From the NCBI GenBank assembly GCA_029213065.1, contig JARGPH010000042.1, forward strand, positions 1 through 44,130: a DNA stretch of 44,130 nucleotides, written 5' to 3'. The position numbers were made by a program, and so were the translations under genes. Shown here one piece after another: positions 25,033 through 44,104 of the stretch; the first letter of the stretch is position 1; the number at the start of each line of letters is the position of its first letter. The stretch is from Verrucomicrobiales bacterium (GTDB lineage Bacteria; Verrucomicrobiota; Verrucomicrobiia; Verrucomicrobiales; DEV007). The notes below the pieces were generated by a model. The model worked only from the letters and a program-made list of their open reading frames with translations. It was not told where the DNA came from and made no database searches.

Positions 25033-25446
25033 ATGATCGAACCTGCCTTCCTTCTCCGGGAAAAAGGAGTTCCCGTTACCGCACAGCGTATCGCCGTTCT
25101 TAATGCTGTTTCTGAACTGCCCCACAGCACCGCTGATGCCATCGCGGGAAGAGTCCGCGACACAATCGGGGCGATATCCAAACAGGCCGTCTATGATGCG
25201 CTTGGCATGTTGACCTCGAAAGGACTGGTTCGACGCATTCAGCCTGCAGGATCTCCGGCGCTCTTTGAAAATCGGGTCGGCGACAATCACCACCACGTCA
25301 TTTGCCGCAGCTGCGGTAAAACTGCCGACGTTGATTGTGCTGTCGGGAAGCGTCCCTGCCTTACGGCTGCGGACAACTCGGGATTTGTGATCGACGAGGC
25401 CGAGGTCATTTACTGGGGGCGGTGCCCCGACTGCATCGCGAAGTAG
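25033..25446 (+). CDS. Fur family metal/peroxide-responsive repressor
   Basis: A 137-residue DNA-binding regulator. The N-terminal winged helix shows [20 protein letters not shown] and the recognition segment [20 protein letters not shown]. The dimerisation and metal part begins at [19 protein letters not shown] (~85-102). C91/C94 and C131/C134 form the two CxxC pairs of the structural zinc site. The NHHH segment supplies regulatory-site ligands. It could be PerR-, Fur- or Zur-like; the YDALGML helix and NHHHVICR segment look nearest PerR/catalase-peroxidase-type regulators, but I would not assign it. No catalase or iron uptake gene is next to it; the neighbour is a BASS transporter. Confidence 0.88.
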
Positions 25447-25575
<129 letters not shown>

Positions 25576-25726
25576 TGAGTTGAATCATCGGGTTCGATTT
25601 TCAATGCCTCCCGGGAGATTCCGGGTGGGTCTTTTTGCGCTCCTCTTCGGTTCGCGGCTGCTTTTGCTGTCGGCAAGTGTGCCGAAATTGCCACGTTTTA
25701 AGACTGACGTTTTGTGAAGTTTTGTC

Positions 25727-26641: not shown

Positions 26642-26650
26642 GGGGGCGCA

Positions 26651-26911
26651 TTAGAGCATCTTCGTTGTTTCTCGCGTAACGGCTTCTTTGAGCGGATCCT
26701 CACCCAATTGATGATACCAGCTCCGGTGAGGTGAATAGCGGTGACAGCTCAGGCACTGGGTTTCGGCCCATGCTTTTCCACACTCCGGGCAGACACCGCC
26801 GGTGTCGAAGGTGTTCCAGACGCATCCGCAGGAATCCCGGCACCACCAGCGATCCGCAGGGCGGGGCTCCCACTTGCATTCAGGACAGTAAATCCGAACT
26901 TCACGAGCCAT
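26651..26911 (-). CDS. Small multi-CxxC zinc-binding protein
   Basis: An 86-residue protein. The Cys pattern is C9/C12, C24/C28/C30, C41/C44 and C53/C56 with H57 and H62, enough for two zinc sites. Tryptophans are frequent (KWEP, RWWC, VWNTF, KAW, SWYHQ). The sequence is neither a known ribosomal zinc ribbon nor rubredoxin. Similar small proteins occur as uncharacterised conserved genes in Bacteroidota and PVC bacteria, as far as I recall. It probably acts in the cytoplasm; a nucleic-acid or protein-interaction role is only a guess. It converges with ppk2. Confidence 0.8.
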   Translation of the reverse strand: MAREVRIYCPECKWEPRPADRWWCRDSCGCVWNTFDTGGVCPECGKAWAETQCLSCHRYSPHRSWYHQLGEDPLKEAVTRETTKML

Positions 26912-26970
26912 TGTTTAATCTAGCTCGTGAACCCGTTCGCGACAACTCGCGATCGGGGCGGTTAGATTGG

Positions 26971-28434: not shown

Positions 28435-29504
28435 TCGTTTTTCAGGGTCTGGAGGAAGAGGACGAGTGATTGGATCTGTTCGTCGGGAATGGGATAAGGG
28501 GGCATGTAACCGGGAGGGAAGCCGTCGACGACTTTCGCCATGGGATCTTTGATTGATTCGACGATGTAGGTTTCGTCGGCGAGGACTGGCTCTTCGAGTC
28601 CGGTGATTTTTCTCTTCGAACCGAAGGTGCCGGCAAATGAGGGGCCGTGTCCGCGGGTGCCGTCGGTGGAGTGGCAGGCAAGGCAACCAAGCTGGGTGTA
28701 AAGCGCTTTGCCCCATTCCAAATTGGGTTTTTCGGTCGAGTAATCCGGAGCCAGTTCCCCGCTTTCGGATTCAGAGAGAAGTCGTCCTGTAACGGTGACT
28801 GAAAAGTTGAGCGGGTCTTTGCTTTCCACTTTCTGTTTGTAACCGGATTCCAGGTAGGCAACCTCTTCGACTCCGCTGATAGAATACTGTTTCACGAAAG
28901 TCATCGGTTCACTGCCGGGAACGATGCGAACACGAATGTGAGCTTTACCCTGAGTGTATTCGAATTCGGGGACGTTATCGATGAGACGGTAGCCTTTGAA
29001 TACAGGGCTGTTGCTCTCGACGAAGTCGTCAAATACCGCGAGAGGGTGAGAGCCCCGGGCAAGGTAGATAAGCGGTCCGACGAGGTCGGGAATGTATCCG
29101 TTCGACTTGCGGCGCCCGCTTTCAGGATCACCCCAGTAATTCAGCATGTCGAGAAAGCCACCCTGCCAGGCAAATAGAAGCCGGCATTCGGTAGCGTCCC
29201 AGCAGTAGGAGAGTCCGGCACCGAAATTGACGCCGATCGCACCGGGGATTCCCCTGATGGGGTCCTCGAGTCCTTCGACGTCTCCTTTACCGGGGCTGTA
29301 TTTCCTGGCACGGAAACCGAGATCGTGATTGGCAAGGACCTCACGACCGAGACCGGGATCGGGAAAGTAGGTTCGGAGCACAAGTGGCTTCTCCGGTGTG
29401 CCGAGAGGTTTGTTGTCGAGCGTTATGTAGCGGTCTTCAGCCATCAGGGAATGGCTTCCGAAGAGCGCGAGCATAGCCAGCGCGAAAAGTATTTTGCTTT
29501 TCAT
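28431..29504 (-). CDS. Exported c-type cytochrome with DUF6797-like region
   Basis: From ATG 29504 the product has 357 residues with a signal peptide (KSKILFALAMLALFGSHSLMA). Residues ~25-250 are a beta-rich region with FGAGLSYCWDATECRLLFAW and QGGFLDMLNYWGDPES, which I associate with DUF6797-type verrucomicrobial proteins. The C-terminal heme domain has C274-L-A-C277-H278, a downstream GHGPSFAGTFG and the probable axial Met in GYMPPYP (~M334). It is the first gene of a two-gene unit, coupled to the propeller gene, and divergent from an XylR-like regulator 74 nt away. The frame stays open to 29624, but that would overlap the regulator and lacks a signal peptide. Confidence 0.87.
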   Translation of the reverse strand: MKSKILFALAMLALFGSHSLMAEDRYITLDNKPLGTPEKPLVLRTYFPDPGLGREVLANHDLGFRARKYSPGKGDVEGLEDPIRGIPGAIGVNFGAGLSYCWDATECRLLFAWQGGFLDMLNYWGDPESGRRKSNGYIPDLVGPLIYLARGSHPLAVFDDFVESNSPVFKGYRLIDNVPEFEYTQGKAHIRVRIVPGSEPMTFVKQYSISGVEEVAYLESGYKQKVESKDPLNFSVTVTGRLLSESESGELAPDYSTEKPNLEWGKALYTQLGCLACHSTDGTRGHGPSFAGTFGSKRKITGLEEPVLADETYIVESIKDPMAKVVDGFPPGYMPPYPIPDEQIQSLVLFLQTLKNE

Positions 29505-29530
29505 TGCTCTAACAAAGCGGTGAAATTTCA

Positions 29531-29574
29531 GCGCACAATAGACATTTTTTTGCAAAAGAGTGCATATTTGCGCA
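29531..29574. promoter_or_regulatory. Candidate operator of the XylR-type regulator
   Basis: GCGCACAATA (29531-29540) and TATTTGCGC (29565-29573) are inverted with one extra base. Between them lie TTTTGCAAAA (29547-29556) and TGCA at 29561. The AT-rich 74-nt divergent spacer must hold both promoters, so a regulator bound here could affect both directions. Confidence 0.5.
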
Positions 29575-29578
29575 TAAA

Positions 29579-30751
29579 ATGGCGCTTGCGACGAAGAACA
29601 GACGGGAGGAAGTGGCTCTGGCAATCCGTGTCGGGGTGCCCCATCTCGGTCGTGTCGCGCAGGGGATTCGGGATTTCGCCGACGCGGAGACTGACTGGCG
29701 ATTTCTGATCAGCCCGGAGACTCACGATCTTCCGCCGCGATCGCTGGAGGGCTGGAGAGGCAGCGGGGTGATCGCTCAGTGCAACACACCGGAAGAGGTG
29801 CGCATTCTCAGTGCTTTGAAGTGCCCGGTGGTGAACATTTCAGGGGCCTTGCGGGAAACGCCGTTCCCACGGGTGATCAATGACTATCGTGAGATTGGGC
29901 GTCGGGCTGCTGAGTTTTTGCGTGAGCGCGGTTTCCGGCGCTTCGGGTTCTACGGGGTTGCCGATGTCTGGTATTCATCGGAAATTGAAGAGGGTTTTTG
30001 CAGCGCGATTCAGAGTCAGGGGTTGCAGGTAGAATTGCTTCACAGCGCCAGTACGATGGAGGCAGTGCCGCGCTGGGATCACGGTCAGGAGGAACTGGAA
30101 GAGTGGCTCCTCTCGCAGCAACCGCCCTTTGCGGTGATGGCGGCCCATGATCCTCGCGCGACGATGGTAATCCGGGCCTGTGAGAAGGTCGGGCTGCAGG
30201 TGCCGTCAGATGTGGCCGCGATAGGGGTAAATGATGACACCATCACCTGCGAGACCTCGCGCCCGACCCTGACAAGTATACGGCGGAGCGGGCATCTTGT
30301 AGGGCGGCTTGCCGCGGAGGCGCTTTACAGGCTCATGCGCGGGGAAGCGGTGGAAGCGGAGACCGTTATCGTGCCGGGGCGGTTCATGGAGCGGGAGTCG
30401 ACGCGGACGCTTGCGATTGACCACCCTGCGCTGGCGGCGGCGGTGGATTTTGTTCGCTTGCACTACCACGAGGCGGTCGGAGTTGAGCAAATCGTGGCTG
30501 CCTCGGGCCAGTCACGCAGATGGCTCGAAGAGGCTTTTCGCCGTGAACTGAGTTGTTCGCCCGCCGGGTTTCTCAAGCGGGAGCGAGTCAAGGCCTGCCA
30601 GCGGGCGATCCGCTCAAAGCCTGCCATTGGGCCTGGAGAGTTGGCCATAAGATGCGGCTTCAGCGGAACACGACAACTTAATGCAGTGTTCGAGCGCGAA
30701 ACCGGAGTGAGTGTGAAGGCCTTTCAGGAAACGGTTCGCGCTTCCCGTTAA
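29579..30751 (+). CDS. XylR-type transcriptional regulator (LacI-like sensor plus AraC HTH)
   Basis: A 390-residue activator/repressor. Residues ~14-275 form a periplasmic-binding-protein-like sensor (VAQGIRDFADAETDWRFLI, PRVINDYREIGRRAAEFLRE, FAVMAAHDPRATMVIRACEK, VPSDVAAIGVNDDTITCETS). The C-terminal ~105 residues are an AraC double HTH (VEQIVAASGQSRRWLEEAFR and ELAIRCGFSGTRQLNAVFE, close to the family signature). This layout is that of E. coli XylR and is very common in verrucomicrobia, where it senses sugars. It is divergent from the cytochrome/propeller pair, so a sugar or sugar derivative probably induces that pair. The ligand is unknown. Confidence 0.92.
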   Translation: MALATKNRREEVALAIRVGVPHLGRVAQGIRDFADAETDWRFLISPETHDLPPRSLEGWRGSGVIAQCNTPEEVRILSALKCPVVNISGALRETPFPRVINDYREIGRRAAEFLRERGFRRFGFYGVADVWYSSEIEEGFCSAIQSQGLQVELLHSASTMEAVPRWDHGQEELEEWLLSQQPPFAVMAAHDPRATMVIRACEKVGLQVPSDVAAIGVNDDTITCETSRPTLTSIRRSGHLVGRLAAEALYRLMRGEAVEAETVIVPGRFMERESTRTLAIDHPALAAAVDFVRLHYHEAVGVEQIVAASGQSRRWLEEAFRRELSCSPAGFLKRERVKACQRAIRSKPAIGPGELAIRCGFSGTRQLNAVFERETGVSVKAFQETVRASR

Positions 30752-30785
30752 AGCGGAAAGCGCGACTCTGAGAAGCGACGGGCCA

Positions 30786-31517
30786 CTAAATGCCGACCAC
30801 TTCCCGCCAGGTCTTCGCCATGAGAGCGTGTCCTTCTCCGGTTGGGTGGACACCATCCTTCGCCCATTTCTCGGGTTCCGTTCCCGCAGCGACAGCCTCA
30901 TCGAACATATCCTGAAACGGAACCCAGAGCGTGTCAGCTGCCTTCGCGACTTCTTTTGCGTAGGCTCTGCGGGTGTCAAAATCGGGGAACCATTCGCCTT
31001 TAAGCACGGCCCCGCATTTCAAGACAAACGGTTCGCAGACAACAATGGTCGTGTCGGGAAGGGCTTTCCGGGTTCGCTCAAGAAGGGCCGCAAAACCATC
31101 GCGGTAGACTTCAGCGGTCCCGTCGTAATTTCCATTCAGTTTGTGCCAGATGTCGTTCACGCCGATCAGAATACTGAGAACGTCCGGTTTCAAATCGATG
31201 CAGTCCCGGTCCCAGCGCTTCGCGAGGTCGGGCACTTTGTGTCCTGAAATGCCCCGGTTGTAAACTTGAAGGTCGAGATCAGCGTGGTCGGCGAGCAATC
31301 CAGCTCCGATGACGGCTGGATAACCGTGTCCGAGGCTGGCTTTCTCGTTGGCGACCTGGTTTTTCTTGTCGCGACCCGCGTCGGTTATGGAGTCTCCCTG
31401 AAAGAGGATCACGCTTCCGGATTCTAAAGTCGGCTTTTCAGCGGCGATGCCAGCAGAAGTGAAAACGCCGGCGGCGGCAGCTGAGGTTCCGGTGCGAATA
31501 AAATTTCGTCGATTCAT
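30786..31517 (-). CDS. Tat-exported SGNH/GDSL hydrolase
   Basis: A 243-residue esterase-like protein. The N-terminus MNRRNFIRTGTSAAAAGVFT is a twin-arginine signal. Block I is ILFQGDSITDAG, block II NRGISGHKVPDLAKRW, block III LIGVNDIWHK and block V DGVHPTGEGHALMAKTW, so all four catalytic positions are present. The layout matches rhamnogalacturonan acetylesterase-like or related carbohydrate esterases. Its 3' end lies 34 nt from the convergent regulator gene. It likely works on acetylated polysaccharide or glycoside in the periplasm. Confidence 0.92.
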   Translation of the reverse strand: MNRRNFIRTGTSAAAAGVFTSAGIAAEKPTLESGSVILFQGDSITDAGRDKKNQVANEKASLGHGYPAVIGAGLLADHADLDLQVYNRGISGHKVPDLAKRWDRDCIDLKPDVLSILIGVNDIWHKLNGNYDGTAEVYRDGFAALLERTRKALPDTTIVVCEPFVLKCGAVLKGEWFPDFDTRRAYAKEVAKAADTLWVPFQDMFDEAVAAGTEPEKWAKDGVHPTGEGHALMAKTWREVVGI

Positions 31518-33056: not shown

Positions 33057-33429
33057 GCTCCCTTTAAACCGCAGAAATGATTCCAAGCTGACACAGGAGT
33101 GAATTTGAGGTTCGAGTGAGTCTCTAAAGAGCTGGCTGTTGCTGCATTGAAGGCGAATTTCGCCCCGGATGGTGGCGGTGCGCTCACAGCGGGCCCTGCG
33201 GTGTTGAAGTGAAAGGATTGCAATATGCGGTGAGGTCTCATTGGCGACTATTGCGGAGTGCAATGGGGCGCTACCAGGGAACCGCAGAGAAATGATGCGC
33301 TCCGGGCCCCGTGATTCTTGATCAGCCTCCCCGGGGGGAGATTTTCTCCGCTCGCATTCGAGCGGGCCATGGTAGAAGCGACGCAAAAAGATCGGCAGGT
33401 TTCTTTAAGATTGGTAGTAAGAAGGTGAA
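33057..33429. other. Intergenic region between coiled-coil and ECF sigma genes
   Basis: No convincing gene in either strand; open frames here are shadows. It contains a perfect 7-bp stem CCGCTCG-CATT-CGAGCGG (33348-33365) and a CTCCCC/GGGGAG palindrome (33327-33340). The promoter of the sigma gene is expected in the last ~60 nt, where the sequence is AT-richer (TTTCTTTAAGATTGGTAG). An autoregulated ECF-type promoter cannot be defined without a consensus. Confidence 0.4.
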
Positions 33430-33975
33430 ATGCCCAACGAACAACCAACCGAGGAGACCTTTTTGCGGGTTTTTCTTCGTAGTGAAGACGACCTTCGTGC
33501 CTATGCCCGCGCCCTTCTGCCAACCTGGGAAGTGGTCGACGAGGTGATGCAGGAAGCCAGTCTCGTGATGTGGCGGAAGCTGGATCAGTTGCGGGATGAA
33601 AGTGAGTTTCTTCCCTGGGCCAAGGTCATCGTGCGGTTTGAATCGCTCAAAGCACGTCGCACTTTTGCCCGGGACCGGCATCAGTTCGGAGATGATGTGT
33701 TCGAACTGCTTGCCGCAGAGGATGAGTCAAATGACGAGGAGGTCTGGCAGCGTGAGCGACTCGCGATGACTTCGTGTCTCGGGAAGTTTGAGCCGGCGCA
33801 ACGCGATCTTGTTTTGCTTCCCTACCGCGGTCACGGGGCCGTCGTTGAGCTTGCCACTGATTCGGGAAAAACGGTGAACAGCCTTTACAAGAAAATTGGC
33901 CGCCTCAGAGAGAAACTAACCGTGTGCATCGAACACGAGATGGCCCGTTCGGGAGCCAATCGAGAATTGTTATGA
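33430..33975 (+). CDS. ECF sigma factor (Rhodopirellula/Verrucomicrobium type)
   Basis: Alternative RNA polymerase sigma subunit of 181 residues, sigma-2 plus sigma-4 only. Region 2 shows LRAYARALLPTWEVVDEVMQ, EASLVMWRKLDQLRDESEFL and PWAKVIVRFESLKARR. Region 4 is less typical: LAMTSCLGKFEPAQRDLVLL, PYRGHGAVVELATDSGKTVN and SLYKKIGRLREKLTVCI, corresponding to the TIGR02989-like planctomycete/verrucomicrobial subfamily. AGAAGGTGAA precedes the start. Its stop overlaps the FecR start as ATGA, a usual sigma/anti-sigma pairing. The next two genes are a cytochrome and a DUF1552 protein, which may be its targets or merely co-transcribed. Confidence 0.92.
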   Translation: MPNEQPTEETFLRVFLRSEDDLRAYARALLPTWEVVDEVMQEASLVMWRKLDQLRDESEFLPWAKVIVRFESLKARRTFARDRHQFGDDVFELLAAEDESNDEEVWQRERLAMTSCLGKFEPAQRDLVLLPYRGHGAVVELATDSGKTVNSLYKKIGRLREKLTVCIEHEMARSGANRELL

Positions 33976-35351
33976 GTGAAACGGATCAATATCATCGGCT
34001 CATTGCTGACTATCAAACGGGTCAGATCTCTGATGAGGACTTTGCGAAGCTTGAGGCTGCCTTGCGCGATTCTGAGGATGTCAGGAACTTGTTTCATCGT
34101 GCCTGTCGAGTCGACTCCCGTTTGCGTCGGATAGCGGAGAATCTCACCGTCGATCAAGAGGCCGAAACTCAGCGCGAGGAATCCAAGGTCGTGTCGATTG
34201 CATCGGGAGACGGATTTCGGAAACAGCCGTTTTTTAAACCGGTTGCGGCGGCGGCAGCGGTTGTTCTCCTGTCTGCCCTGACCTGGACGATTGCAGCTCA
34301 AAAACGAGTCGTCGCGAATTTGGTGTCGAGTGAGGATGCGGTGTGGGAGCGGGGCGCTCCGACAGAGTCAGGGCTATCTTTGACGAGAGGCTCATTGAGA
34401 TTATCCTCTGGAATCGCAACGATTCGATTCGTGTCAGGGGTCGAGATGACACTTGAGGCTCCGGTGCGGTTGTATCTCAAGGGACCGGTCCGGGCTACCC
34501 TGGTTTCCGGGACAGTGGTGGTGAAGTCAGACAGAGAAGATGATTTTGTTCTTGAGACGGAGTTCGGACAGGCGGTCGCTCACGAAGGTGAATTCGCTGC
34601 ATTTGGGGGAACCGGAGAATCGGGAACCGATTTCGAGGCGATCTCGGGGAAGGTGATCATCAGTCATGATTTCTCGCGGGAGGTTACTCAACTGACAGGC
34701 GGCGCTACCGCGACGATGTCGGCGGACCGCCTCGACTCCAGTGAGGAGAGAAGAATCGAGCCGCCCTTTGAGCGGTTTGATAAACGTGCTCGAATCCGGA
34801 CGGATGGACGGGCCGCCACATTCATTCGGAACAACCGGGTTCGCAAATGGACGCGACCTGAGTTCCTGACTTTGAAAACGTCGACTCATGGAAACGGTTT
34901 TGATCAGCGGTCCGTGATTGGATTCGATCTTACGGCTGTCGAATCCGCGGAGATCGAGGCAGTCAGTTTGCGTCTCAATGTGGTGCACAGTGGTCGTGGC
35001 CTCATCAGTCGACTCCCGAAAATGAATCGTTTTGCCGTGTATGGCGTTGTGAATCCTGCGAAGGAAGACTGGTTGGTGGGGGATCTCTGGGAGGAAGCAC
35101 CTGCTCCGGACGACGGGGTTTTTCTCGCCCGGTTTGAGATTCCACGGAGTCAGACCAGCGGTGAGATTGATCTCACTAGTGAAGCCATATCAGATTTTGT
35201 TCGAAAGAAGGCGGGGCACTCCGTCTCGTTTGTGATTGTTCGTGAGACCGCGAATCGCGATGGAGACGGGCCGGGATACACTCATGCGATTGCGAGTGAT
35301 TCCCATCCGGAGGTGTCGGGACCCATGCTCGAAATGGTGCTTAAACAGTAA
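33972..35351 (+). CDS. FecR-like membrane protein with C-terminal DNRLRE/CBM96-like domain
   Basis: From ATG 33972, overlapping the sigma gene by ATGA, the product has 459 residues; the earlier in-frame ATG at 33924 lies inside the sigma gene. Residues 1-85 are an acidic cytoplasmic helical part (IADYQTGQISDEDFAKLEAA), which may bind the sigma factor. A membrane helix follows at ~90-108. The FecR domain spans ~118-240 (GSLRLSSGIATIRFVSGVEM, VRLYLKGPVRATLVSGTVVV). Residues ~280-459 resemble a DNRLRE/CBM96 beta-sandwich (SVIGFDLTAVESAEIEAVSL). Many relatives carry a LamG domain here instead. The external domain could sense a carbohydrate; this is inferred. Confidence 0.88.
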   Translation: MSETDQYHRLIADYQTGQISDEDFAKLEAALRDSEDVRNLFHRACRVDSRLRRIAENLTVDQEAETQREESKVVSIASGDGFRKQPFFKPVAAAAAVVLLSALTWTIAAQKRVVANLVSSEDAVWERGAPTESGLSLTRGSLRLSSGIATIRFVSGVEMTLEAPVRLYLKGPVRATLVSGTVVVKSDREDDFVLETEFGQAVAHEGEFAAFGGTGESGTDFEAISGKVIISHDFSREVTQLTGGATATMSADRLDSSEERRIEPPFERFDKRARIRTDGRAATFIRNNRVRKWTRPEFLTLKTSTHGNGFDQRSVIGFDLTAVESAEIEAVSLRLNVVHSGRGLISRLPKMNRFAVYGVVNPAKEDWLVGDLWEEAPAPDDGVFLARFEIPRSQTSGEIDLTSEAISDFVRKKAGHSVSFVIVRETANRDGDGPGYTHAIASDSHPEVSGPMLEMVLKQ

Positions 35352-35357
35352 TTTTCA

Positions 35358-37940
35358 GTGAAGACTCTTATCCTTATGCAAAACCAAATTGCCGGTTGGC
35401 TCGCTCTTTTCGGGTTCGCAATGAGTTCATTTTTGTCCTGCGCTCTCGCCGAAGAGGATGAGAGAGCGGGACTCGAAGCGGAAGCGGAAATGCCCGAAAT
35501 TCATTTTGATGTTCTCGATAAATACTGCCTCGAATGTCATGATTCCCTCACGGAAAAAGGGGAGGTGAATCTGGAGGATCTTTCATTTTCTCTCGTCAAA
35601 AATATCGAAACAGCAGAGACCTGGAACAAAGTGCTCAATGCGATCAATTCGGGAGAAATGCCGCCGGAGGATGAGCCCCAGATCAGCGCGAATGAGAAAA
35701 CCGAATTCCTCCGCGACCTTTCGGAGAGAATGGTAATCGCTCGCAGCGTTCTGAGCGACAGTGGCGGAGTGATCGAGATGCGGCGTTTGAATCGGCGCGA
35801 GTATGCGAACACTCTTGAGGATCTTTTGGGAGTTCGCCCCGATGTTTCATTGTTGCCCGATGACCAGGCGAGTTCGGAGTTCGATACGATGGGAGCGTCG
35901 CTCTTTTTCTCGAGTGATCAGTTGGAGCAATACCTCAAGACTGCGCGAAACACTCTGGAGTTGGCTCTCAATGCAAAGGCACCGGCGGAGTCGAAGACGG
36001 TTCATATTGAGCCGGAGGACATTTTTGTTCCCTTGTATGCCGACCTTGCAGTGAAAAGACTGGATACCGCGTCGCGCTATTACCAGTGGCGGGCAAACGG
36101 TGGCTCTGATGACATTGCTAAAGAGCATGGATTTCTCGACGGATGGCAGGCCGAACGAAGTATAAACTCTTTTAAATCGAGTTATCTTCCGCTGGAGAAG
36201 TGGCTCACGGCTCCAGAGAATCGAAGCGGCGCCGCGATGATGGTGACGATTAAAAGTGGATTCACTTCAATGAAGTTGCCTCAGGTGAGAGCGTGGCAGC
36301 CGGGGAGATATCTCATCAGACTTCGTGCCGGCGCCTATGAAGATGATCCGGAGCGTTTCCGCTTTCTTGAATTTGTTCGAAAAGAAGGGCAAAACTCGAC
36401 TCGACTCGGTTGGCGAAAGGTGAATGCCGCTTTGAAGAATCCTGAAATTATAGAGTTTGAAATCGATCATGCACCGGGAGTAGACGCCATCTATCAAGTG
36501 CAGAAACGTTCCCATATGGATCGGGGGGATAAGAACCTCGAGGCGGTCTATCGGAAAGAAAATACGTATGGAACACCCTGGGGCATTTGGATCGATTGGG
36601 TGGAACTCGAAGGACCGTTACCTGTAGAGCCGAATGAATCCTCTCCTTCTATCATTTCGGAGAAGCCAAAAGATCAAAGTGACGATGACTATGTAAGGGG
36701 AGTGTTGAGAGACTTTGCTGTAATTGCTTTTCGAGGCGAAGCGCCGGGCGGGGAGTTTCTTGAAAAGCTCTTTGCCCGTTATTCGGCGAATCGTAAGAAA
36801 GGGCAGGAAATGAAGGATGTATTGATCGGGCCGCTCGCGATCGTTCTTTCTTCGCCGAGTTTTCTATACATGGTAGAGTCGGCTGAGAGCGATGAATCCA
36901 GGGATCTTACCGGGAACGAATTGGCAGTCCGTCTCGCTTATTTTCTCTGGAGTTCGCCCCCGGATGCTGAATTACTCAGTCTTGCCAGAGAAGGTAAATT
37001 GAAGAAGCCCGAAGTGTTGGCAGAGCAAACGGGCCGACTACTCTCCGATCCCCGCTCGGATCGATTCGTTCGCAGCTTTGCCTATCAGTGGTTGGAAATG
37101 CATCGACTCGGGATGTTTGCTTTTGCCGGTCGCGACTTTCCCACTTTCGACAACGCGGTTCGCGATTGTGCGGCGGAAGAAATCTACGAGACGTTCTCCA
37201 CCCTCATGCATGAGGGGCTTTCACTGAAAAATTTTCTGAAGTCGGACTTCGTCGTCGTGAACGATGTGCTGGCCGGTTATTACGGGCTTGATGGAGTCGA
37301 TGGTCATCACTGGCGCAAAGTGGCTCTTCCGGCCGATTCGCCCAGAGGGGGATTGCTTGGTTCGGTGGCGGTCGCGGCGATGGGATCGGACGGGCAGCGT
37401 TCCTCTCCTGTCGAGCGCGGAGCCTGGGTTCTTCGGAAACTCCTTAATGATCCGCCACCTCCGGCTCCGCCGAATGTTCCGATGTTGAGTCGGTTTGAAG
37501 ACGAGATTCTCTCAGTGCGCGATTTACAGAAAGCGCATCAGGAGCAGCCGCAGTGTGCTCAGTGTCATGAGAAAATTGATCCGATCGGATACGGAATGGA
37601 AAACCTCGATGCTGCCGGCATGTGGCGGGATATCGAAGTGGTGACCTCAGGGAGAAAGGGATCGACGAAAACTGAGTTCGCGATCGATCCTGCAGGTAGT
37701 TTTGGACAGGGGAATGATTTTTCAAACTTCTTCGAACTGCGGGACGAAGTCGCAGAGGAAATTGACGGCTTTGCCATGAGCATGACCGAAGCGCTCATTA
37801 CCTACGGATTGGGAAGGCCATTCGGGTTTACCGATCACGATCTCGCTCACGAGATCGTTTCTCACGCAAGTGGGCATGACTACAAAATTGAAGAGTTCAT
37901 CCACGCCCTCATTCAATCGAAAGCCTTTCAATCTAAATAA
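35358..37940 (+). CDS. Large exported PSCyt cytochrome protein (DUF1587/1592/1588/1585/1595)
   Basis: An 860-residue protein from GTG 35358, 6 nt after fecR; an ATG at 35376 is an alternative. The signal region is WLALFGFAMSSFLSCALA. The PSCyt1-like heme site is C57-L-E-C60-H61. Domains in order are DUF1587 (RRLNRREYANTLEDLLGV), DUF1595 (FRGEAPGGEFLEKLFARY), DUF1592 (GNELAVRLAYFLWSSPPDAE), DUF1588 (SPVERGAWVLRKLLNDPPPP) with a second heme site C733-A-Q-C736-H737, and DUF1585 at the end (SMTEALITYGLGRPFGFTDH). These families are typical of planctomycetes and verrucomicrobia and have no proven reaction. It is followed by the DUF1552 gene at 5 nt. Confidence 0.93.
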   Translation: MKTLILMQNQIAGWLALFGFAMSSFLSCALAEEDERAGLEAEAEMPEIHFDVLDKYCLECHDSLTEKGEVNLEDLSFSLVKNIETAETWNKVLNAINSGEMPPEDEPQISANEKTEFLRDLSERMVIARSVLSDSGGVIEMRRLNRREYANTLEDLLGVRPDVSLLPDDQASSEFDTMGASLFFSSDQLEQYLKTARNTLELALNAKAPAESKTVHIEPEDIFVPLYADLAVKRLDTASRYYQWRANGGSDDIAKEHGFLDGWQAERSINSFKSSYLPLEKWLTAPENRSGAAMMVTIKSGFTSMKLPQVRAWQPGRYLIRLRAGAYEDDPERFRFLEFVRKEGQNSTRLGWRKVNAALKNPEIIEFEIDHAPGVDAIYQVQKRSHMDRGDKNLEAVYRKENTYGTPWGIWIDWVELEGPLPVEPNESSPSIISEKPKDQSDDDYVRGVLRDFAVIAFRGEAPGGEFLEKLFARYSANRKKGQEMKDVLIGPLAIVLSSPSFLYMVESAESDESRDLTGNELAVRLAYFLWSSPPDAELLSLAREGKLKKPEVLAEQTGRLLSDPRSDRFVRSFAYQWLEMHRLGMFAFAGRDFPTFDNAVRDCAAEEIYETFSTLMHEGLSLKNFLKSDFVVVNDVLAGYYGLDGVDGHHWRKVALPADSPRGGLLGSVAVAAMGSDGQRSSPVERGAWVLRKLLNDPPPPAPPNVPMLSRFEDEILSVRDLQKAHQEQPQCAQCHEKIDPIGYGMENLDAAGMWRDIEVVTSGRKGSTKTEFAIDPAGSFGQGNDFSNFFELRDEVAEEIDGFAMSMTEALITYGLGRPFGFTDHDLAHEIVSHASGHDYKIEEFIHALIQSKAFQSK

Positions 37941-37945
37941 TTATC

Positions 37946-39253
37946 ATGAGAAAGAATCTAACACGCCGCGCCGTTCTCCGAAGCAGTACCGCCACGATAG
38001 CACTGCCGTTTCTTGAGTCATTTGGATTTCGAAAGTTCGCTTCCGCTGCAGAGCAGGTGAAGAGTCCCAAGCGAATGATTTGGATGGGGATGGGGTTTGG
38101 TGTCACTGCTGACAAGTGGTTTCCGAACAAGGAAGATACCGGCACTGACTACGCTTTTCCCAGTATTCTCAAGCCTCTCGAAAAGCATCGGGATGACCTG
38201 AGCTTTATTCAGCATTTGATGCATAAGGATTCTCAGGATGGTCATAGTGGCAGTACGTTCTGGCTAACCGGTGCCAATCGCTATGCTGTTCCCGGACAGA
38301 GCTTTCACAACTCGATTTCAGTTGATCAGCTTGCTGCCGAAACTCTGGGGCAGGATACCAGGTTTACCTCGATCCAACTTTGTGCGAGGGAGGCTGCTGA
38401 TTCCGGTAGCAGCGGTCACGGGCCGGGACTCTCACTCGCCTGGAACCGTCAGGGTAAGCCTGTCTCTGGATTGGGAAGCCCTGTTGAGGCGTTTCACCGT
38501 TTGTTCTCAGACGAAAGCACTCCGCTTGCTGAACGCCAGGCCCGCCTCAATGAGCAGCGAAGCGTTCTCGATACGGTGATGTCTGACGCGAAGTTCGTGC
38601 AGAAGAAAGTCAGTCAATCGGACAACGAAAAGTTGGACGAGTATTTGCAGTCGGTCAGGGAAATCGAAGTTCGATTATCAAAGGAGGAGCAGTGGCTCGA
38701 TGTCGAGAAAAAGCAGCCTGACCCTGCAGTGATTGAACCGGGGGAATCTCTTGTCGGTTACGAAGAAATGGGAGTCATGGCCGATCTTATGGTGGCGGCG
38801 ATGCAGGTGGATGCCACCCGTGTTCTTACCTATCGCATGCCTGTGGATACGATGATTGCAAGTCTCGGCGCGGGTATCAGCGCCCACACGATGAGCCACT
38901 ATTCTCATGGAGAACGTCGCGACGTATCTGAAATGAGGGATCTGTACAACGCAAAGTTTCTCGCGAGGTTTATAGATAAGCTCAAAGCGTCAAGAGAGGC
39001 GGATGGCTCTACTCTCTTCGATAATACCACTCTTACGATGGGGACAAATCTGTTCTCGGTTCACACTTTGAGGAATTGCCCGACTCTCGTTGCCGGTGGC
39101 GGATCGGGGTTTGTTCACGGTCGTCATCTCGTCATGGGCGACGAGAAAACGCCGCTTTGCAATTTATGGCTGTCCCAATTGAAAGGCTCGGGCATTGATG
39201 TGGAGTCATTCGGTGACTCGACAGGCGTGATTGACGAATTGGTTGAGGCATAG
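37946..39253 (+). CDS. DUF1552 Tat-exported protein (copy 1)
   Basis: A 435-residue protein starting MRKNLTRRAVLRSSTATIAL, a twin-arginine signal. Family landmarks are KRMIWMGMGFGVTADKWFPN, HRDDLSFIQHLMHKDSQDGH, TLGQDTRFTSIQL, a central SVLDTVMSDAKFVQKKVSQ helix and LVAGGGSGFVHGRH near the end. The name-giving HXXSHH motif appears as HTMSHYSHG, with Tyr at the last position. The fold is related to sulfatase/alkaline-phosphatase-like proteins by family annotation, but no reaction is proven. It is probably co-transcribed with the PSCyt gene upstream (5-nt gap). It is followed by a repeat island. Confidence 0.93.
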   Translation: MRKNLTRRAVLRSSTATIALPFLESFGFRKFASAAEQVKSPKRMIWMGMGFGVTADKWFPNKEDTGTDYAFPSILKPLEKHRDDLSFIQHLMHKDSQDGHSGSTFWLTGANRYAVPGQSFHNSISVDQLAAETLGQDTRFTSIQLCAREAADSGSSGHGPGLSLAWNRQGKPVSGLGSPVEAFHRLFSDESTPLAERQARLNEQRSVLDTVMSDAKFVQKKVSQSDNEKLDEYLQSVREIEVRLSKEEQWLDVEKKQPDPAVIEPGESLVGYEEMGVMADLMVAAMQVDATRVLTYRMPVDTMIASLGAGISAHTMSHYSHGERRDVSEMRDLYNAKFLARFIDKLKASREADGSTLFDNTTLTMGTNLFSVHTLRNCPTLVAGGGSGFVHGRHLVMGDEKTPLCNLWLSQLKGSGIDVESFGDSTGVIDELVEA

Positions 39254-39310
39254 GTGCTATTTACGCAGAGCGGAGTGGAGTTAGATTGTTGATTCGACCG
39301 TTTTGGATAC
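39254..39310. other. Spacer between DUF1552 copy 1 and the repeat island
   Basis: Short AT/GC-mixed spacer with no gene or clear terminator. It is followed directly by palindromes. Transcription from the first module may end within the palindromes. Confidence 0.3.
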
Positions 39311-39398
39311 AACCCCGTTGGGGTTGGATGATTTTAACGTCCAATTCCCGGGGTTCCTGAACCCCGGGCTTGGATACGAATCCCCGTTGGGGATGGTT
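39305..39398. repeat. Cluster of three palindromes resembling a REP/REPIN-like element
   Basis: AACCCC-GTT-GGGGTT (39311-39325) and TCCCC-GTT-GGGGA (39381-39393) flank a perfect 22-nt palindrome with arms CCCGGGGTTC/GAACCCCGGG (39347-39368). Each outer palindrome is preceded by TTGGATAC, so two similar half-elements surround the central one. Palindromic intergenic elements of this look are dispersed in many environmental bacteria. No transposase gene is in the window. Confidence 0.7.
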
Positions 39399-39420
39399 GT
39401 TCCGTTGTCATAAGTTAAGC

Positions 39421-39469
39421 GCCACGAGCCACGAGCCACGAGCCACGAGCCACGAGCCACGAGCCACGA
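39421..39469. repeat. Seven tandem copies of a 7-bp unit (GCCACGA)
   Basis: Seven exact copies of GCCACGA in 49 nt, directly downstream of the palindrome cluster. In one minus-strand frame they read as a repeating WLVARGS-type peptide, which is a translation artefact. There are no spacers, so this is not a CRISPR array. Copy number probably varies between strains. It is followed by an A/C-rich stretch with two short CCAA/TCAAAATCC-like repeats. Confidence 0.9.
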
Positions 39470-39570
39470 GCTCCAAAATCCAAGATTCAAAATCCCGCAG
39501 CAGAACGTCCTGAAACTTTTTTCGGCAGGTCTGGAAGCGACCGGCAGTAAGTGTGTAAGCTAACTACAAG

Positions 39571-40821
39571 ATGAAGACCGATAGACGCAATTTTATTAAG
39601 GGCCTTGGAGGAGCGCTCACGCTTCCTTTTCTGGAATCGACGGCTTTTGCGGGGCAGAAGTCTGCGACTCGTTTCCTCGTTGTCGGGAATCCTTTTGGAA
39701 TGCATCCCGAGCATTTCTTTCCAAAGGATTTTGGCAAAGACTTTACGGTTTCACGAACTCTCAAATCTCTCGATTGGGTCAAGGATCGCACAACAGTCCT
39801 GTCGCATACCGATCACAATATGGTGAGTGGTCACGGTCGTGAAGTTGCCTTTCTCAGCGGAGTCCTCCCCACCGATGCGCAGGCATTTCCTGAGAAAAAC
39901 ATGTCAGTCGATCAGGCGGTTGCCCGACATACCGGAGCACAAGTTCGATACCCTTCGCTGAATGTAGGGCTTAACAGTGGCGTCCGTATGAGCTGGACTG
40001 CCAACGGCGTTGAAAATGAATTGATCACTGATCCGGAGAAACTCTTTGATCATCTGTTCCTGAATCTCACTGAGAAGGAAAAAGAACAGCGCCGGCAAAT
40101 GTTGAGCCGTAATGGAAGTATTCTCGACACGGTCGGCGATCAGTTCGCCGACGTGATCAAAAACGGAAGCAAGAGCGATGCCGAGCGGATTGATCAGTAT
40201 CAGACTTCGGTCCGCGAATTGGAAGCCACTTTAGCGAATCGCACGCACTGGATTGGTCTGGATAAACCTGAATTTGATATCTCCGATCACTACTCCGGTG
40301 AGGTAACAATCGAAAACGAATACAACGCGATTTTCGATATGATCTCGTTCGCGTTTGAAACCGATTTGACTCGCGTTGCGACGGTCGCTTTTCCTACTAA
40401 TCTTGGTTATACAGATGTCCCCGGTGTCACTCGCAGCTATCACGGATGCACGCACAACGGCAAGATGGAGGACGTCACTGACGAACTTGTCGCAATCGAA
40501 TCTTTCCAGGTTCAACAGCTTTCCCGCTGTATGCAAAAGCTGGATTCCATCCCCGAGCCGAATGCTGAAGGGAGCATGCTGGATCACACCGTTGTTCTAT
40601 TCGGAAGTGGCATGGGCTATGGCGGAACCCACTCGAACCGGGACCTTCCGATCTTTGTCGCAGGAGGTGGCTTCAAGCACCTCGGGCATGTTGATACAAG
40701 AAATGACGCCGGAGAAAATATGCCGCTCTGCAATCTCTATCTCACGCTCATGCAGCGATTTGGTATGGAGAGAGACGAGTTCAATATCAGCACGGGAGCT
40801 TTTGATTTGAGCTATGCGTAA
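39571..40821 (+). CDS. DUF1552 Tat-exported protein (copy 2)
   Basis: A 416-residue protein starting MKTDRRNFIKGLGGALTLPF, a twin-arginine signal. It shares the family plan with copy 1: RFLVVGNPFGMHPEHFFPKD, RTTVLSHTDHNMVSGHGREV, the central NGSILDTVGDQFADVI helix, and VLFGSGMGYGGTHSNRDLPI before IFVAGGGFKHLGHV. The HXXSHH block is degenerate here (TRSYHGCTHNG). Sequence identity to copy 1 looks low outside the motifs, so the two diverged long ago or were acquired separately. The last 8 nt overlap the following PSCyt gene, showing translational coupling. Confidence 0.93.
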   Translation: MKTDRRNFIKGLGGALTLPFLESTAFAGQKSATRFLVVGNPFGMHPEHFFPKDFGKDFTVSRTLKSLDWVKDRTTVLSHTDHNMVSGHGREVAFLSGVLPTDAQAFPEKNMSVDQAVARHTGAQVRYPSLNVGLNSGVRMSWTANGVENELITDPEKLFDHLFLNLTEKEKEQRRQMLSRNGSILDTVGDQFADVIKNGSKSDAERIDQYQTSVRELEATLANRTHWIGLDKPEFDISDHYSGEVTIENEYNAIFDMISFAFETDLTRVATVAFPTNLGYTDVPGVTRSYHGCTHNGKMEDVTDELVAIESFQVQQLSRCMQKLDSIPEPNAEGSMLDHTVVLFGSGMGYGGTHSNRDLPIFVAGGGFKHLGHVDTRNDAGENMPLCNLYLTLMQRFGMERDEFNISTGAFDLSYA

Positions 40822-43354
40822 ATTTCAGAGCACCGCAAAGAATCCAATTCTGATGGGCGTTGGCTTAAACAGAGTTAGGTCAGTGATCGTACCCTGTTGG
40901 GTGATGATGTCGACCCTGTTTGGACCGGTGGGTATGGCCGATCAAGCGCTCATGAAAGAGCATTGCTTTGATTGTCATAGTGCCGACAAAACCAAGGGTA
41001 AATTTGAACTGAGTTTTCTCGGTGATGGACCTGATGTCGATAATTTGGAGCGTTGGCTCGATTGTCTCGATCTCGTGACGGCCGAAGAAATGCCTCCGGA
41101 GGATGACAGCCACCTTGCTGCTCCGGATCGTGAAAAAATCATCGCCTACCTGGATGAGAAAGTGCGTGCCTTCGAAAAGAGCGCCAATCTCACTTCCTCG
41201 CCGAAACCGCGTCGCCTGAACAATCGCGAATTCGCCAACGGCGTTCGTGACGTGCTTTTACTTGAAGATATCGGAACGAATCTGCCGATGGATAATCTGA
41301 TAGGCGATGCCTTGCATCATGGATTCGATACACATGGAGATACTCTGAGCTTCAGCCGGTTTCATTTGGAGCAGTATGTGGAAGCGGTCCGGAAAGTCGT
41401 TGATGCGACCGTGTTTTCCGGTGAGCGCCCCGAATCCAAACGTTACGAGATTCCAGCAGAGCGGATTTTTCGTCAGCAGTTGAGTCAAAATAATTCGCGT
41501 GCTATTGAAAAGGGAGAGAACGGGGTATTCGATTTTCTTGATCCGAAGTTAGCAGGCTATTTTCCGGATTTTGAAGAAGCGCCTGCATCCGGTCGATACT
41601 CGATCAAAATCAGCTGTATGGGAAAAGATCGCGGTATCTATGATGTGGAGGAAACCGGATACTATCACGATGATCCTGTTCAGCTTTCTGTTCACATGGG
41701 TGACCGGGTGAAGACATTCGATCTTCCGGATGAGAAAGTGATCGAGCTGGAACTCGATGAGTGGATCGACGCCGGAACTCGTGTCGAAATGCATTTCCCG
41801 ACCGATGCTTATACGATCCGGGGTAACGGCAATTTTAAATTTCAATACGGGATCACACCGACGCATCTCAAAAAATACGATCCGGAGCGCTACGATGAGC
41901 TCGTTTCGGCGATCGAGAAATCGCCAGGCAGAAACAAACGGAAGAGGATCGACACCTGGCATAATTGGACGGATTACTGGATGGGTGCCCGCCCGCAGGT
42001 TTTCAGTGTCGAGATCGAAGGTCCTCTCTATGAGGCCTGGCCTCCGAAACGTCAGGTGGCATTGTTAGGAGATAGCCCCGTCGCCGCAAATGCCGCGGAT
42101 ATCCTGCGTCCGATCGCGAACAGGGCATGGCGTCGGCCCGTGAAGGACGGAGAACTCGAGAAGATCGTCGACATGGTCAAGGAAGAGGCGAAGACGATGG
42201 GAGATATTGTAGCGTTGAAAGAAGGGATCGTAGCTGTTCTTGTTTCGCCCGCTTTTCTCATGGCCAATCTGGAGGCGAATGAACCCGCGAGCCGTTTTGC
42301 TTCAAAGCTCAGTTTTTTCCTCGAGAGCACCATTCCCGACCAGGAACTGCGTGACGAGGTAGGCGCAGGAAAACTGGATTCGTTTGAGGCGGTTCAGAAG
42401 CTCATTCAATCGGAGATTGAAAAAGGAACCGCTGATACGTTTCTTCGTGAGTTTCCTTTTGCCTGGCTCGAGCTGAATGATATCAACTTCATGGGGCCGG
42501 ATCCGGAGCACTATCGTTTCTATCATAAGAAGCGTCTCAGCGAGGACATGGTCGACGAAGTGCTGGAATTCTTCCGGTATGCAGTGACTGAAAACCGGCC
42601 CGTTCCCGAACTTCTTTCTGCCGACTACAGTTTTATCAATGCCGACCTTGCGAAGATATACGGAGTCGAGGATGTCCCGGGCGATTCGAAGTTCCGCCGC
42701 TACACATTTAAGGACGGTCGTCGCGGAGGGCTGCTCGGAATGGGGGCTTTTCTGACTTCGACTGCAGACAGTCTCGCGACATCTCCGATTCATCGGGCCG
42801 TGTATGTGATGGAAAACATGATGGGGATTCATCCAACGCCACCTCCGCCCAATGTGGTGATCAAGGAGCCGGATGTCCGCAAGGCGAGTACGATCAAAGA
42901 AATTCTTGCCGCTCACGTTTCGGATGAAAATTGTGCAAGCTGTCACGAGGCGATCGATCCCTGGGGATATGCCTTTGAAAATTTTGATCCGACCGGGGCG
43001 TGGCGCGATGTTTACGTGGTTCCTGTCATTCTTGAAACGGACGAAAACGGGGATCCGATTCCGAGCAAAAAAAAGGACGTCACGATCCCGATTGATAGCA
43101 GTGCCAAATTCAGGAACGGCTTCAAATATCAGGACATCACGGAGTTTCGAAATGAAATCCTGACCGATACGAATCGCGATCGATTTGTGAAGTGCTTCAT
43201 CGAAAAGCTCCTCACCTACGCGAATGGCGCGGAGCCGGAGGAGTCTGACTTCGTGGCGATCGACGATATCCTCACGAAGTCAGCGGAGCACGACTACCGG
43301 ATCGTCGAAACAATCGCGGCAGTGGTGAACAGTCCGCTTTTTCGCGGAAAGTGA
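40814..43354 (+). CDS. Large exported PSCyt cytochrome protein (copy 2)
   Basis: An 846-residue protein starting 8 nt before the end of the DUF1552 gene. The N-terminus has a weak signal (IVPCWVMMSTLFGPVGMA). The heme sites are C51-F-D-C54-H55 and C707-A-S-C710-H711. Domains are DUF1587 (PRRLNNREFANGVRDVLLLE), a carbohydrate-module-like middle with FPDFEEAPASGRYSIKISCM, DUF1595 (ANRAWRRPVKDGELEKIV), DUF1592 (SFFLESTIPDQELRDEVG), DUF1588 (SPIHRAVYVMENMMGIHPTP) and DUF1585 (CFIEKLLTYANGAEPEESD). It has the same architecture as the 860-residue copy at 35358, but the pair order is reversed. Function unknown. Confidence 0.93.
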   Translation: MRKFQSTAKNPILMGVGLNRVRSVIVPCWVMMSTLFGPVGMADQALMKEHCFDCHSADKTKGKFELSFLGDGPDVDNLERWLDCLDLVTAEEMPPEDDSHLAAPDREKIIAYLDEKVRAFEKSANLTSSPKPRRLNNREFANGVRDVLLLEDIGTNLPMDNLIGDALHHGFDTHGDTLSFSRFHLEQYVEAVRKVVDATVFSGERPESKRYEIPAERIFRQQLSQNNSRAIEKGENGVFDFLDPKLAGYFPDFEEAPASGRYSIKISCMGKDRGIYDVEETGYYHDDPVQLSVHMGDRVKTFDLPDEKVIELELDEWIDAGTRVEMHFPTDAYTIRGNGNFKFQYGITPTHLKKYDPERYDELVSAIEKSPGRNKRKRIDTWHNWTDYWMGARPQVFSVEIEGPLYEAWPPKRQVALLGDSPVAANAADILRPIANRAWRRPVKDGELEKIVDMVKEEAKTMGDIVALKEGIVAVLVSPAFLMANLEANEPASRFASKLSFFLESTIPDQELRDEVGAGKLDSFEAVQKLIQSEIEKGTADTFLREFPFAWLELNDINFMGPDPEHYRFYHKKRLSEDMVDEVLEFFRYAVTENRPVPELLSADYSFINADLAKIYGVEDVPGDSKFRRYTFKDGRRGGLLGMGAFLTSTADSLATSPIHRAVYVMENMMGIHPTPPPPNVVIKEPDVRKASTIKEILAAHVSDENCASCHEAIDPWGYAFENFDPTGAWRDVYVVPVILETDENGDPIPSKKKDVTIPIDSSAKFRNGFKYQDITEFRNEILTDTNRDRFVKCFIEKLLTYANGAEPEESDFVAIDDILTKSAEHDYRIVETIAAVVNSPLFRGK

Positions 43355-43360: not shown

Positions 43361-44104
43361 TCAGTCAGCCATCAGTTCTTTCACTTTCGGCTGAATCGCC
43401 TTGGACCAGATTTCGTATCCCTCAGCGTTCGGGTGAAGGAGGTCCGGCATGATATCTTTGGAAAGAGTGCCGTCTTTTTCGAGGAACTGGTCGTTGATGT
43501 CCATGAAGAAGACTTTTTTGTCGTCGGCGAGCTTGGCGATCATTTGGTTCACCTTCTCGTTTTTCAGGCGTTTCGGGTCGTTGTCGTCAGCGCCACGGGG
43601 GAAGATCGCAAGGATGAGGATTTTCATCTGCGGCTGCATCGCCTGAAGTTTGTCGACAATCGCGGTGACGCCTGCAGCGGTTTCTTCGGCGCTGCTTGAA
43701 TAAACGGCCCCACCGTGCTCGGCCATTTCGCGGCCTTCGTGACCGGTGTTGTTCGTTCCGATCATGAGGACGGTGAGTTTCGGCTTGAGGCCGTCGTAGT
43801 TGCCGTTTTCGAGACGCCAGAGGATGTGTTCGGTGCGGTCGCCGCCGATGCCGAAGTTGGCTGCACCCATGGGGGCCCAGTAGGTTTCCCAGGCAGCTTT
43901 GCCACGACCGCTCCAGCCCTGTGTGATCGAGTCACCGAGGAAGACGAGAGGCGCTTCGCCCTCCTTCGAAATCTCGTTGAACGATGCGTGCAGTTTTTCC
44001 TTACCCGGATGCGGGGCAGGGGTGAGGGCGAGTGGCTTAGGGGTGTCTTTCGCAATAGCGAGTGAGGTGAATGCAATCACGGTGGTAAGCAGAATATTTC
44101 TCAT
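43361..44104 (-). CDS. Exported SGNH/GDSL hydrolase (PAF-acetylhydrolase-like)
   Basis: A 247-residue esterase-like protein with a signal peptide (RNILLTTVIAFTSLAIAKDT). Block I is VFLGDSITQGWSG, block II FGIGGDRTEHILWRL, block III MIGTNNTGH and block V DLLHPNAEGYEIWSKAI. The GGDRTEHILWRL segment is typical of the platelet-activating-factor acetylhydrolase-like branch found in polysaccharide-utilising bacteria. An ideal GGAG box lies upstream of the ATG at 44102-44104. It converges with the PSCyt gene 6 nt away. It likely removes acetyl groups from periplasmic carbohydrates; the substrate is not known. Confidence 0.92.
   Translation of the reverse strand: MRNILLTTVIAFTSLAIAKDTPKPLALTPAPHPGKEKLHASFNEISKEGEAPLVFLGDSITQGWSGRGKAAWETYWAPMGAANFGIGGDRTEHILWRLENGNYDGLKPKLTVLMIGTNNTGHEGREMAEHGGAVYSSSAEETAAGVTAIVDKLQAMQPQMKILILAIFPRGADDNDPKRLKNEKVNQMIAKLADDKKVFFMDINDQFLEKDGTLSKDIMPDLLHPNAEGYEIWSKAIQPKVKELMAD

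Follow-up and report, generated by a model that had tools for sequence, protein, structure and literature searches.

The window analysed here, the whole 44,130-base stretch that forms contig C64 of a 5.9 Mb draft genome of a Verrucomicrobiales bacterium (own genome, G000), carries a cassette encoding an extracytoplasmic function (ECF) sigma factor and a FecR-like protein, followed by two modules, each associating a PSCyt3 cytochrome with a DUF1552 protein. We favour, with moderate confidence, the view that this locus is one ECF regulon of two ancient modules, each encoding two exported redox partners that probably act on esterified carbohydrate. A promoter-like site common to the sigma gene and module 2 suggests that one regulator switches on both modules, and the best reading of the genome comparisons is that PSCyt3 and DUF1552 form an obligate exported pair, functioning only together.

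All six genes lie on the + strand, in the order and with the spacings described in an earlier sequence-only reading of this DNA. The sigma factor (33430–33975), of the gvs1 type, matched TIGR02989 at 148.8 bits (cut-off 124.55) as well as Sigma70_r2. Its gene shares an ATGA overlap with the one encoding the FecR-like membrane protein, a likely anti-sigma factor or sensor (33972–35351), and 6 nt separate the latter from the Pfam-assigned PSCyt3 gene of module 1 (35358–37940), itself followed after 5 nt by the DUF1552 (HXXSHH) gene (37946–39253; PF07586, 248.9 bits). Module 2 starts 317 nt further on with DUF1552 (39571–40821; PF07586, 205.3 bits), which overlaps by 8 nt the second Pfam-assigned PSCyt3 gene (40814–43354). 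Families PF07586, PF07626, PF07627, PF07631 and PF07624, all named in the sequence-only reading, scored above cut-off in both modules; PF07637, also named there, did so in module 2 and fell marginally below in module 1 (34.1 vs 34.2). PSCyt1 (PF07635) was above cut-off in module 1 (33.5) and slightly below in module 2 (21.3 vs 22). The module 1 cytochrome gene starts with GTG, with an alternative in-frame ATG at 35376, and its product is organized as PSCyt1 (haem), PSD3, a carbohydrate-binding module (CBM)-like domain, then PSD5-PSD4-PSCyt3(haem)-PSD2. The two haem sites proposed for each cytochrome hold across the family, two CXXCH motifs being found in the proteins of both modules and in 71 of the 72 aligned members. 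A Sec-like leader on the module 1 cytochrome and twin-Arg leaders on both DUF1552 proteins were assigned from sequence reading and a hydropathy scan alone; the two arginines are kept in 88/89 and 87/89 aligned DUF1552 members.

An ECF-type promoter-like site, CGGCAGGT-N15-AGTAAG (33393–33421, + strand), stands 8 nt ahead of the sigma start, and a second exact copy (39523–39551, + strand) is found 19 nt ahead of module 2. Both belong to the generalised motif CGGCAGGT-N15-[AC]GTA[AG]G, which is expected 0.00 times (100 shuffles) and whose A/C-GTA box we take to resemble ECF -10 elements. As the motif was first seen by eye when the window was compared with locus L011, it was tested on other data, the training set of the matrix being limited to the sigma upstream regions of L011, L105 and L108 and the spacer fixed at 15 bases. 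Of the 2,415,944 positions scored (1.21 Mb of own DNA), the sigma site of the window had the highest value, 25.4 bits, followed by the module 2 site with 21.6 bits and by a third match with 17.8. In other loci, beyond the training sites and the window copies, the matrix recovered a sulfatase gene and module 2 in L011 (module 2 in L011/L155), and, in L172 (genome G023), the FecR-PSCyt gap ahead of the module 1 cytochrome and again a sulfatase gene; the next match, at the sister-clade sigma of L138, scored 18.0 and was followed by background. A further 400 kb of genome G011 contained one site above 20 bits, at the sulfatase already known, then sites of 19.5 and 16.7. The site is absent ahead of all 8 module 2 orthologues that do not lie beside this sigma (8/8), which we counted in favour of the regulon; two of them, L139 and L170, have another gvs1 sigma nearby. 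At the sequence level, a common putative -35/-10 site lies before both the sigma operon and its presumed target, as in an ECF regulon. The statement that module 2 has no regulator of its own is contradicted by the site at 39523–39551 and is probably wrong, and a sigma factor driving one module only is not supported. By eye, many gvs1 sigma genes of another sigma clade (L115-L133) carry a different upstream motif, TTGTCCAA...CCGGACCTT, so that promoter specificity seems to track the sigma clade.

Control of module 1 only, with module 2 as an unrelated neighbour under an ordinary promoter and the motif due to chance or to a repeat, appears unlikely to us. This explanation would fit the 317 nt gap with its repeats and its terminator-like hairpin of 7 pairs (39310–39326, + strand), the latter coming from a scan in which hairpin-like sites of the region were little above chance (19 vs 12.4 ± 3.4 expected). 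It would also fit the separation of the modules in 4 of the 6 genomes that hold both, and the module 2 orthologues that lie elsewhere without the site. It accounts poorly for two sites against 0.00 expected and for their held-out ranks of 1 and 2. In addition, the site is kept before module 2 of L011 though the remaining gap differs (by eye), and the window sites agree at only 5/15 letters of their spacers (counted by eye), which argues against a copied repeat.

Sequence comparisons indicate that the two modules, although of one family, separated long ago. The DUF1552 copies of the window are about 30% identical, and the two modules occupy separate deep clades in the DUF1552 tree as well as in the PSCyt tree, each having its nearest kin in other genomes. 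The rejection of a simple tandem duplication by the sequence-only reading was thus borne out: a local duplication with inverted gene order, for which the adjacency of the same families would speak, is highly improbable given this low identity and these separate clades. Among 33 genomes of the genus (own included), module 1 orthologues (at least 78%) occur in 6 and module 2 orthologues (at least 63%) in 9; G022 has in addition a truncated module 1 copy at its locus L059. Both modules were found in 6 genus genomes, G022 not being counted among them, and stand side by side only in the own genome and G011; in G005, G006, G023 and G029, module 1 is followed by other genes. Among named records, L009, an uncultured Verrucomicrobiales bin, comes closest to module 1 (95% identity for DUF1552, 91% for PSCyt). 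The handles L011/G011, L059/G022, L015/G029 and L010/G005 apparently designate one record each and were counted once.

The pairing of the two families was then considered at the level of the genome, which contains 21 DUF1552 genes above cut-off and 20 PSCyt3 genes. Nineteen adjacent same-strand pairs include 19/20 PSCyt3 and 19/21 DUF1552 genes, leaving unpaired the DUF1552 genes of L070, which reaches a contig end, and L060, and the PSCyt3 gene of L075. The congruence of the partners' trees, a test set by the sequence-only reading, was confirmed, with 37/58 splits in common against a permuted mean of 0.22. Tree distances correlated with Spearman coefficients of 0.935 for 61 pairs and 0.882 for the 19 own paralogue pairs, the latter test being independent of species history, and none of 5000 partner permutations reached the observed values (0/5000). 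Separate analysis of the own DUF-first (n=8) and PSCyt-first (n=11) pairs gave 6/5000 and 2/5000 permutations as high, respectively. The 61 pairs exclude incomplete genes, loci L001-L008, which repeat own DNA, and six planctomycete triples; in these (L035, L036, L038, L043, L054 and L057), one cytochrome gene lies between two unlike partners (DUF1552-PSCyt-DUF1552). Single tree nodes are not trustworthy, since the PSCyt tree was built by a quick procedure and long branches occur in both trees. Among 96 genomes of the phylum (own included), DUF1552 occurs in 6 and PSCyt3 in the identical 6, with 21/20, 10/10, 7/7, 1/1, 1/1 and 1/1 copies. The chance of an identical set is 1e-9, a value that ignores kinship and includes the own genome, which was bound to hold both. 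Outside the own genome, 16/20 DUF1552 genes of this phylum sample adjoin a PSCyt3 gene, according to their coordinates.

The opposite gene order of the two modules, which had been presented as remarkable, loses this status at the genome level, where 11 pairs are PSCyt-first and 8 DUF-first. Order is inherited and yet flips repeatedly, since the 61-pair trees require 5 (DUF1552) or 6 (PSCyt) changes against about 15.6 after shuffling; both orders are found within both large clades. At another locus of the own genome, L062, two modules of opposite order are likewise found on the same strand, separated by about 6 kb.

The predicted structures of the module 1 proteins gave indications on their possible functions. 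The DUF1552 model (pLDDT 81.5, pTM 0.82) is predicted to adopt the alkaline-phosphatase/sulfatase-superfamily fold: it superposed on PafA (5too) with a VIA Z of 16.7 and an rmsd of 3.8 over 264 residues, PafA, ENPP and S1 sulfatases ranged from Z 14.9 to 16.7 over 229-265 residues among the matches listed, and the best Foldseek match had an E value of 2.5e-4. Profile comparison linked DUF1552 to DUF1501 (86% probability, E 5e-6) and DUF1501 to sulfatases (96%). Residues H100, D127, H314 and H318 are invariant in 89/89 DUF1552 proteins, and H373 is kept in 87/89; this His/Asp set suggests a metal site. In the alignment through DUF1501, inspected by eye, H100 falls within one residue of the sulfatase Cys position, before the LTG motif, and the superfamily nucleophile (Cys/Thr/Ser) appears to be replaced in DUF1552 by a conserved His. 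The family would thus share the fold of the alkaline phosphatase superfamily and differ from it by its twin-Arg leader, its own conserved set and the apparent loss of the nucleophile.

The cytochrome model (AlphaFold2, pLDDT 86.5) contains in its middle part a cryptic region (35985–36623, + strand; model residues 178-390) that resembles a CBM6/CBM35/CBM36-like jelly roll. This region matched the XynJ structure 2dcj (VIA Z 9.6, rmsd 2.8, 108 residues) and the CBM6 structure 2cdp (VIA Z 9.5, rmsd 3.6, 124 residues), and no Pfam CBM match was obtained there at E 0.001. The evidence for this likeness is only moderate, because Z values of 7 to 8 are common without kinship. Met101, conserved in 72/72 PSCyt proteins, probably ligates the first haem. 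When the DUF1552 and PSCyt profiles were run against the sequences of solved structures, nothing usable was obtained.

A mechanism can be proposed in which the FecR-like protein would sense an extracytoplasmic cue and release the gvs1 sigma factor, which would then read its own promoter, ahead of the sigma-FecR-module 1 operon, and the second copy before module 2. The di-haem c-type cytochrome with its carbohydrate-binding-like domain would be exported by Sec and its DUF1552 partner by Tat, a division that makes sense if haem is attached outside and the partner's metal is loaded in the cytoplasm. The substrate of both pairs would most likely be esterified (sulfated or acylated) carbohydrate, from which a reaction step would yield electrons that pass through the haems to the respiratory chain. 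Our data support the earlier proposal that the paired proteins form an exported system and are probably controlled from outside the cytoplasm. In a more specific and tentative version, which we consider rather doubtful, the pair would be a new type of two-part oxidative carbohydrate enzyme, in which the sulfatase-fold protein, its nucleophile replaced by a His-rich metal site, oxidises or oxidatively opens a sugar held by the CBM-like domain; the paralogous pairs, at most about 20 in a genome, would each be tuned to a different decorated sugar, some of them being switched by ECF promoters of their own.

Two other functions were weighed against that of a redox pair. DUF1552 could be an active phosphatase- or sulfatase-like esterase, the role of the cytochrome being limited to anchoring or sensing; such a hydrolytic pair, about as doubtful as the oxidative sugar enzyme, would agree with the alkaline-phosphatase fold (Z 16.7) and with the carbohydrate esterases found among the 99 immediate neighbours of the modules (BD-FAE 6, SASA 5, GDSL 3). 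The superfamily nucleophile is, by eye, apparently a His in DUF1552, the two haem motifs of 71/72 partners are hard to explain without redox work, and 4/6 of the BD-FAE neighbours look orthologous, all of which speak against a hydrolytic pair. Somewhat less probable is the view that the modules respond to envelope stress or dispose of electrons, and do not serve the use of carbon. The Rhodopirellula ECF factor RB10049, a suggested regulator of a PSD1/PSC2 protein, was induced by three stresses according to the passages concerning it in PMC2754498, which favours a stress role; the CBM-like domain of the cytochrome, the sulfatases preceded by the same promoter-like site in two relatives, and the sensor C-termini, LamG-type in relatives and weakly DNRLRE-like here, rather point to carbohydrate.

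The redox regulon that we prefer must also be confronted with several observations that weigh against it. Module 1 does not always come with this sigma factor: in L009 the sigma is a distant one and the FecR is of LamG type, L015 has module 1 without a sigma or FecR match, and in L172 no sigma was found beside the FecR-like gene (2769-4346), although the sites are present. Genomes G005 and G006 hold this sigma, yet their module 2 lies elsewhere without the site. In the window, the sigma site lies so close to the ATG that the transcript would be near-leaderless, unless the start or the -10 call is wrong, and the scans that followed the discovery of the motif by eye cover about 1/5 of the genome. 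In the phylum sample outside the own genome, PSCyt3 is missing next to 4/20 DUF1552 genes. Compared directly, DUF1552 and sulfatase profiles gave a probability of 0.35%, so that their link by sequence passes through DUF1501, and no known haem-protein fold was listed for the C-terminal half of PSCyt, a part barely tested for fold. Finally, a sulfatase lies within 5 kb of 4/19 modules versus 25% of random sites, and the esterase signal beside the modules is weak.

The sequence-only reading had named the protein encoded after the sigma gene FecR. This protein gave no PF04773 match up to an E value of 10, whereas relatives at the same position did so (L039, 7.8e-10; L040, L009 and L012), align with it and were retrieved by a profile seeded with it. 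It is therefore called FecR-like only. A hydropathy scan revealed one strong hydrophobic segment (residues 91-109). The C-terminal part scored 19.4 bits against DNRLRE, below the cut-off of 34, and a LamG-type domain occupies the same place in L009 and L012.

The sigma cassette precedes PSCyt-first modules in the window, L009, L011, L012, L037 and L072, and DUF-first modules in L039, L040 and L073, as well as in L051-L053, where the sigma is more distant. Two sulfatase genes stand between FecR/LamG and PSCyt in L009 (sigma, FecR/LamG, two sulfatases, PSCyt, DUF1552), and in L037 a TonB plug protein is encoded between the sigma gene and the module. On the sigma tree, the window factor clusters with its counterparts from L105, L108 and L011 and next with sigma factors mostly preceding sulfatases, the L009 sigma being placed elsewhere. 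A sigma factor dedicated to the module was considered and rejected: the module label needs 5 changes on the sigma tree against a shuffled mean of 8.0 (7/500 shuffles as low), with 25 of the 49 rows labelled and the others left uncounted for too little downstream DNA. The sigma thus looks exchangeable. Of the 17 gvs1 sigmas above cut-off in the own genome, nine stand ahead of either a PSCyt-type module or its DUF1501 partner, 3 of them before PSCyt3/DUF1552 modules and 6 before DUF1501/PSD1 genes, including one case (C67) in which the two genes are 4-5 kb apart. This association has a P value of 7e-9 under uniform placement, with 63 modules.

Sulfatase neighbourhood was rejected as evidence for the own genome, no enrichment being observed beside the modules. 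A sulfatase lies within 10 kb of 5/19 modules versus 41% of random sites (drawn on 16 contigs), and sulfatases represent 7/99 of the immediate neighbours and 7/103 of distal genes (Fisher p 1.0). The locus lacks the gene content of a sulfated-polysaccharide utilisation locus: no sulfatase match was found on the contig, nor among the window proteins scanned, glycoside hydrolases not having been searched genome-wide, and it is only in the loci of relatives that sulfatases were seen. In its 5.9 Mb, the own genome contains approximately 141 sulfatase loci and 49 DUF1501 genes. Carbohydrate esterases gave a suggestive enrichment only: each of the three families reached at most 1 of 103 distal genes, and together they account for 14/99 immediate neighbours against at most 3/103 (p 0.005, or 0.025 after collapsing the apparently orthologous BD-FAE genes), the distal counts being upper bounds taken from the top 25 families. 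A GDSL/SGNH esterase gene adjoins module 2 on the other strand (43361–44104, -; PF13472, 115.4 bits); its membership in the regulon is unsupported, the contig covering just 26 bases of its upstream region. Two further candidates were discarded. In L170, where DUF1552, PSCyt and sulfatase genes follow one another on one strand, an apparent PSCyt-sulfatase fusion was due to a reading frame crossing runs of N read as X. Lactonase, a module neighbour in L011 and L164, was not used, the own genome having just 6, none of which adjoins a module.

Other features of the contig were noted. Between the modules, the palindrome-like CCCCGTTGGGG occurs twice (39313-39323 and 39382-39392; 0.03 expected in the window), together with the 7-base unit GCCACGA repeated 7.3 times in perfect tandem (39421-39471). 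The palindrome is missing from L011, and no GCCACGA-like tandem repeat was seen by eye in the intermodule gap of that locus. Upstream of the sigma cassette, a possible sugar/ester island (19879-31514) encodes two GDSL esterases (19879-20625, -, and 30786-31514, -), a lactonase (21562-22704, -), an NHL-like protein (22774-23775, -), an SBF symporter (23932-24816, -), a weak PVC-type haem-binding/DUF7133 protein (26971-28713, -) and a LacI/AraC hybrid regulator (29579-30748, +). The first 17500 bases form a housekeeping block with EF-Tu, NusG, ribosomal proteins L1 and L10, RpoB, S2 and EF-Ts.

The PSCyt3/DUF1552 module is widespread yet uncharacterised, and the genomes of some PVC bacteria hold numerous copies of PSCyt, DUF1552 and DUF1501 genes, the own genome having 20 PSCyt3, 21 DUF1552 and about 49 DUF1501. 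Strict co-occurrence, a predicted partner fold and a predicted promoter make their function testable, and the promoter-like site, by linking the modules to sulfatases in relatives, provides a tie to sulfated glycans that is regulatory and not one of neighbourhood. Searches of the open-licence PMC literature returned nothing on a shared promoter, on the second module or on the DUF1552 fold. FecI/FecR-type ECF systems associated with TonB receptors are organized as a sigma gene, then a gene for a FecR protein, then the targets. The cassette follows this order, and the TonB plug protein of L037 is an additional likeness; it differs in that the window has no receptor gene within the cassette and in that the FecR-like proteins, here and in relatives, have DNRLRE-like or LamG-type C-termini.

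The pairing of PSCyt3 with a conserved neighbour is already in print for freshwater Verrucomicrobia, in which He et al. 2017 (PMC5615132) described PSCyt3 genes beside a gene of a conserved unknown family. Their account, as given in the main text, agrees with ours on the cytochrome family, its large copy numbers and unknown function, and some of their PSCyt3 members carry carbohydrate-binding modules, the protein described here being predicted to contain a CBM-like domain. That main text mentions neither sigma nor FecR, and its passages on these genes give no fold for the partner; it reports a sulfatase neighbourhood and a guess at a carbohydrate role, whereas no such enrichment is seen in the own genome. 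In Rhodopirellula baltica, the ECF factor RB10049 was suggested to control the PSD1/PSC2 protein RB10051 (PMC2754498, citing Studholme et al. 2004), which would similarly place a planctomycete-type cytochrome gene under an ECF sigma. That case concerns the sister family PSD1/PSCyt2, whose partner is DUF1501 in our census, and the passages of that article on this pair describe neither a second module nor a promoter. Modules of this sister type in the own genome also combine a cytochrome-type gene with a partner, which is distantly related to DUF1552: a PSD1 gene lies close by, in the same orientation, for 44/49 DUF1501 genes, and 6 gvs1 sigmas lie upstream of such genes. Their gene order is near-fixed, 41/44 DUF1501 genes following PSD1 (41 to 3), whereas that of PSCyt3 and DUF1552 is free (11 to 8).

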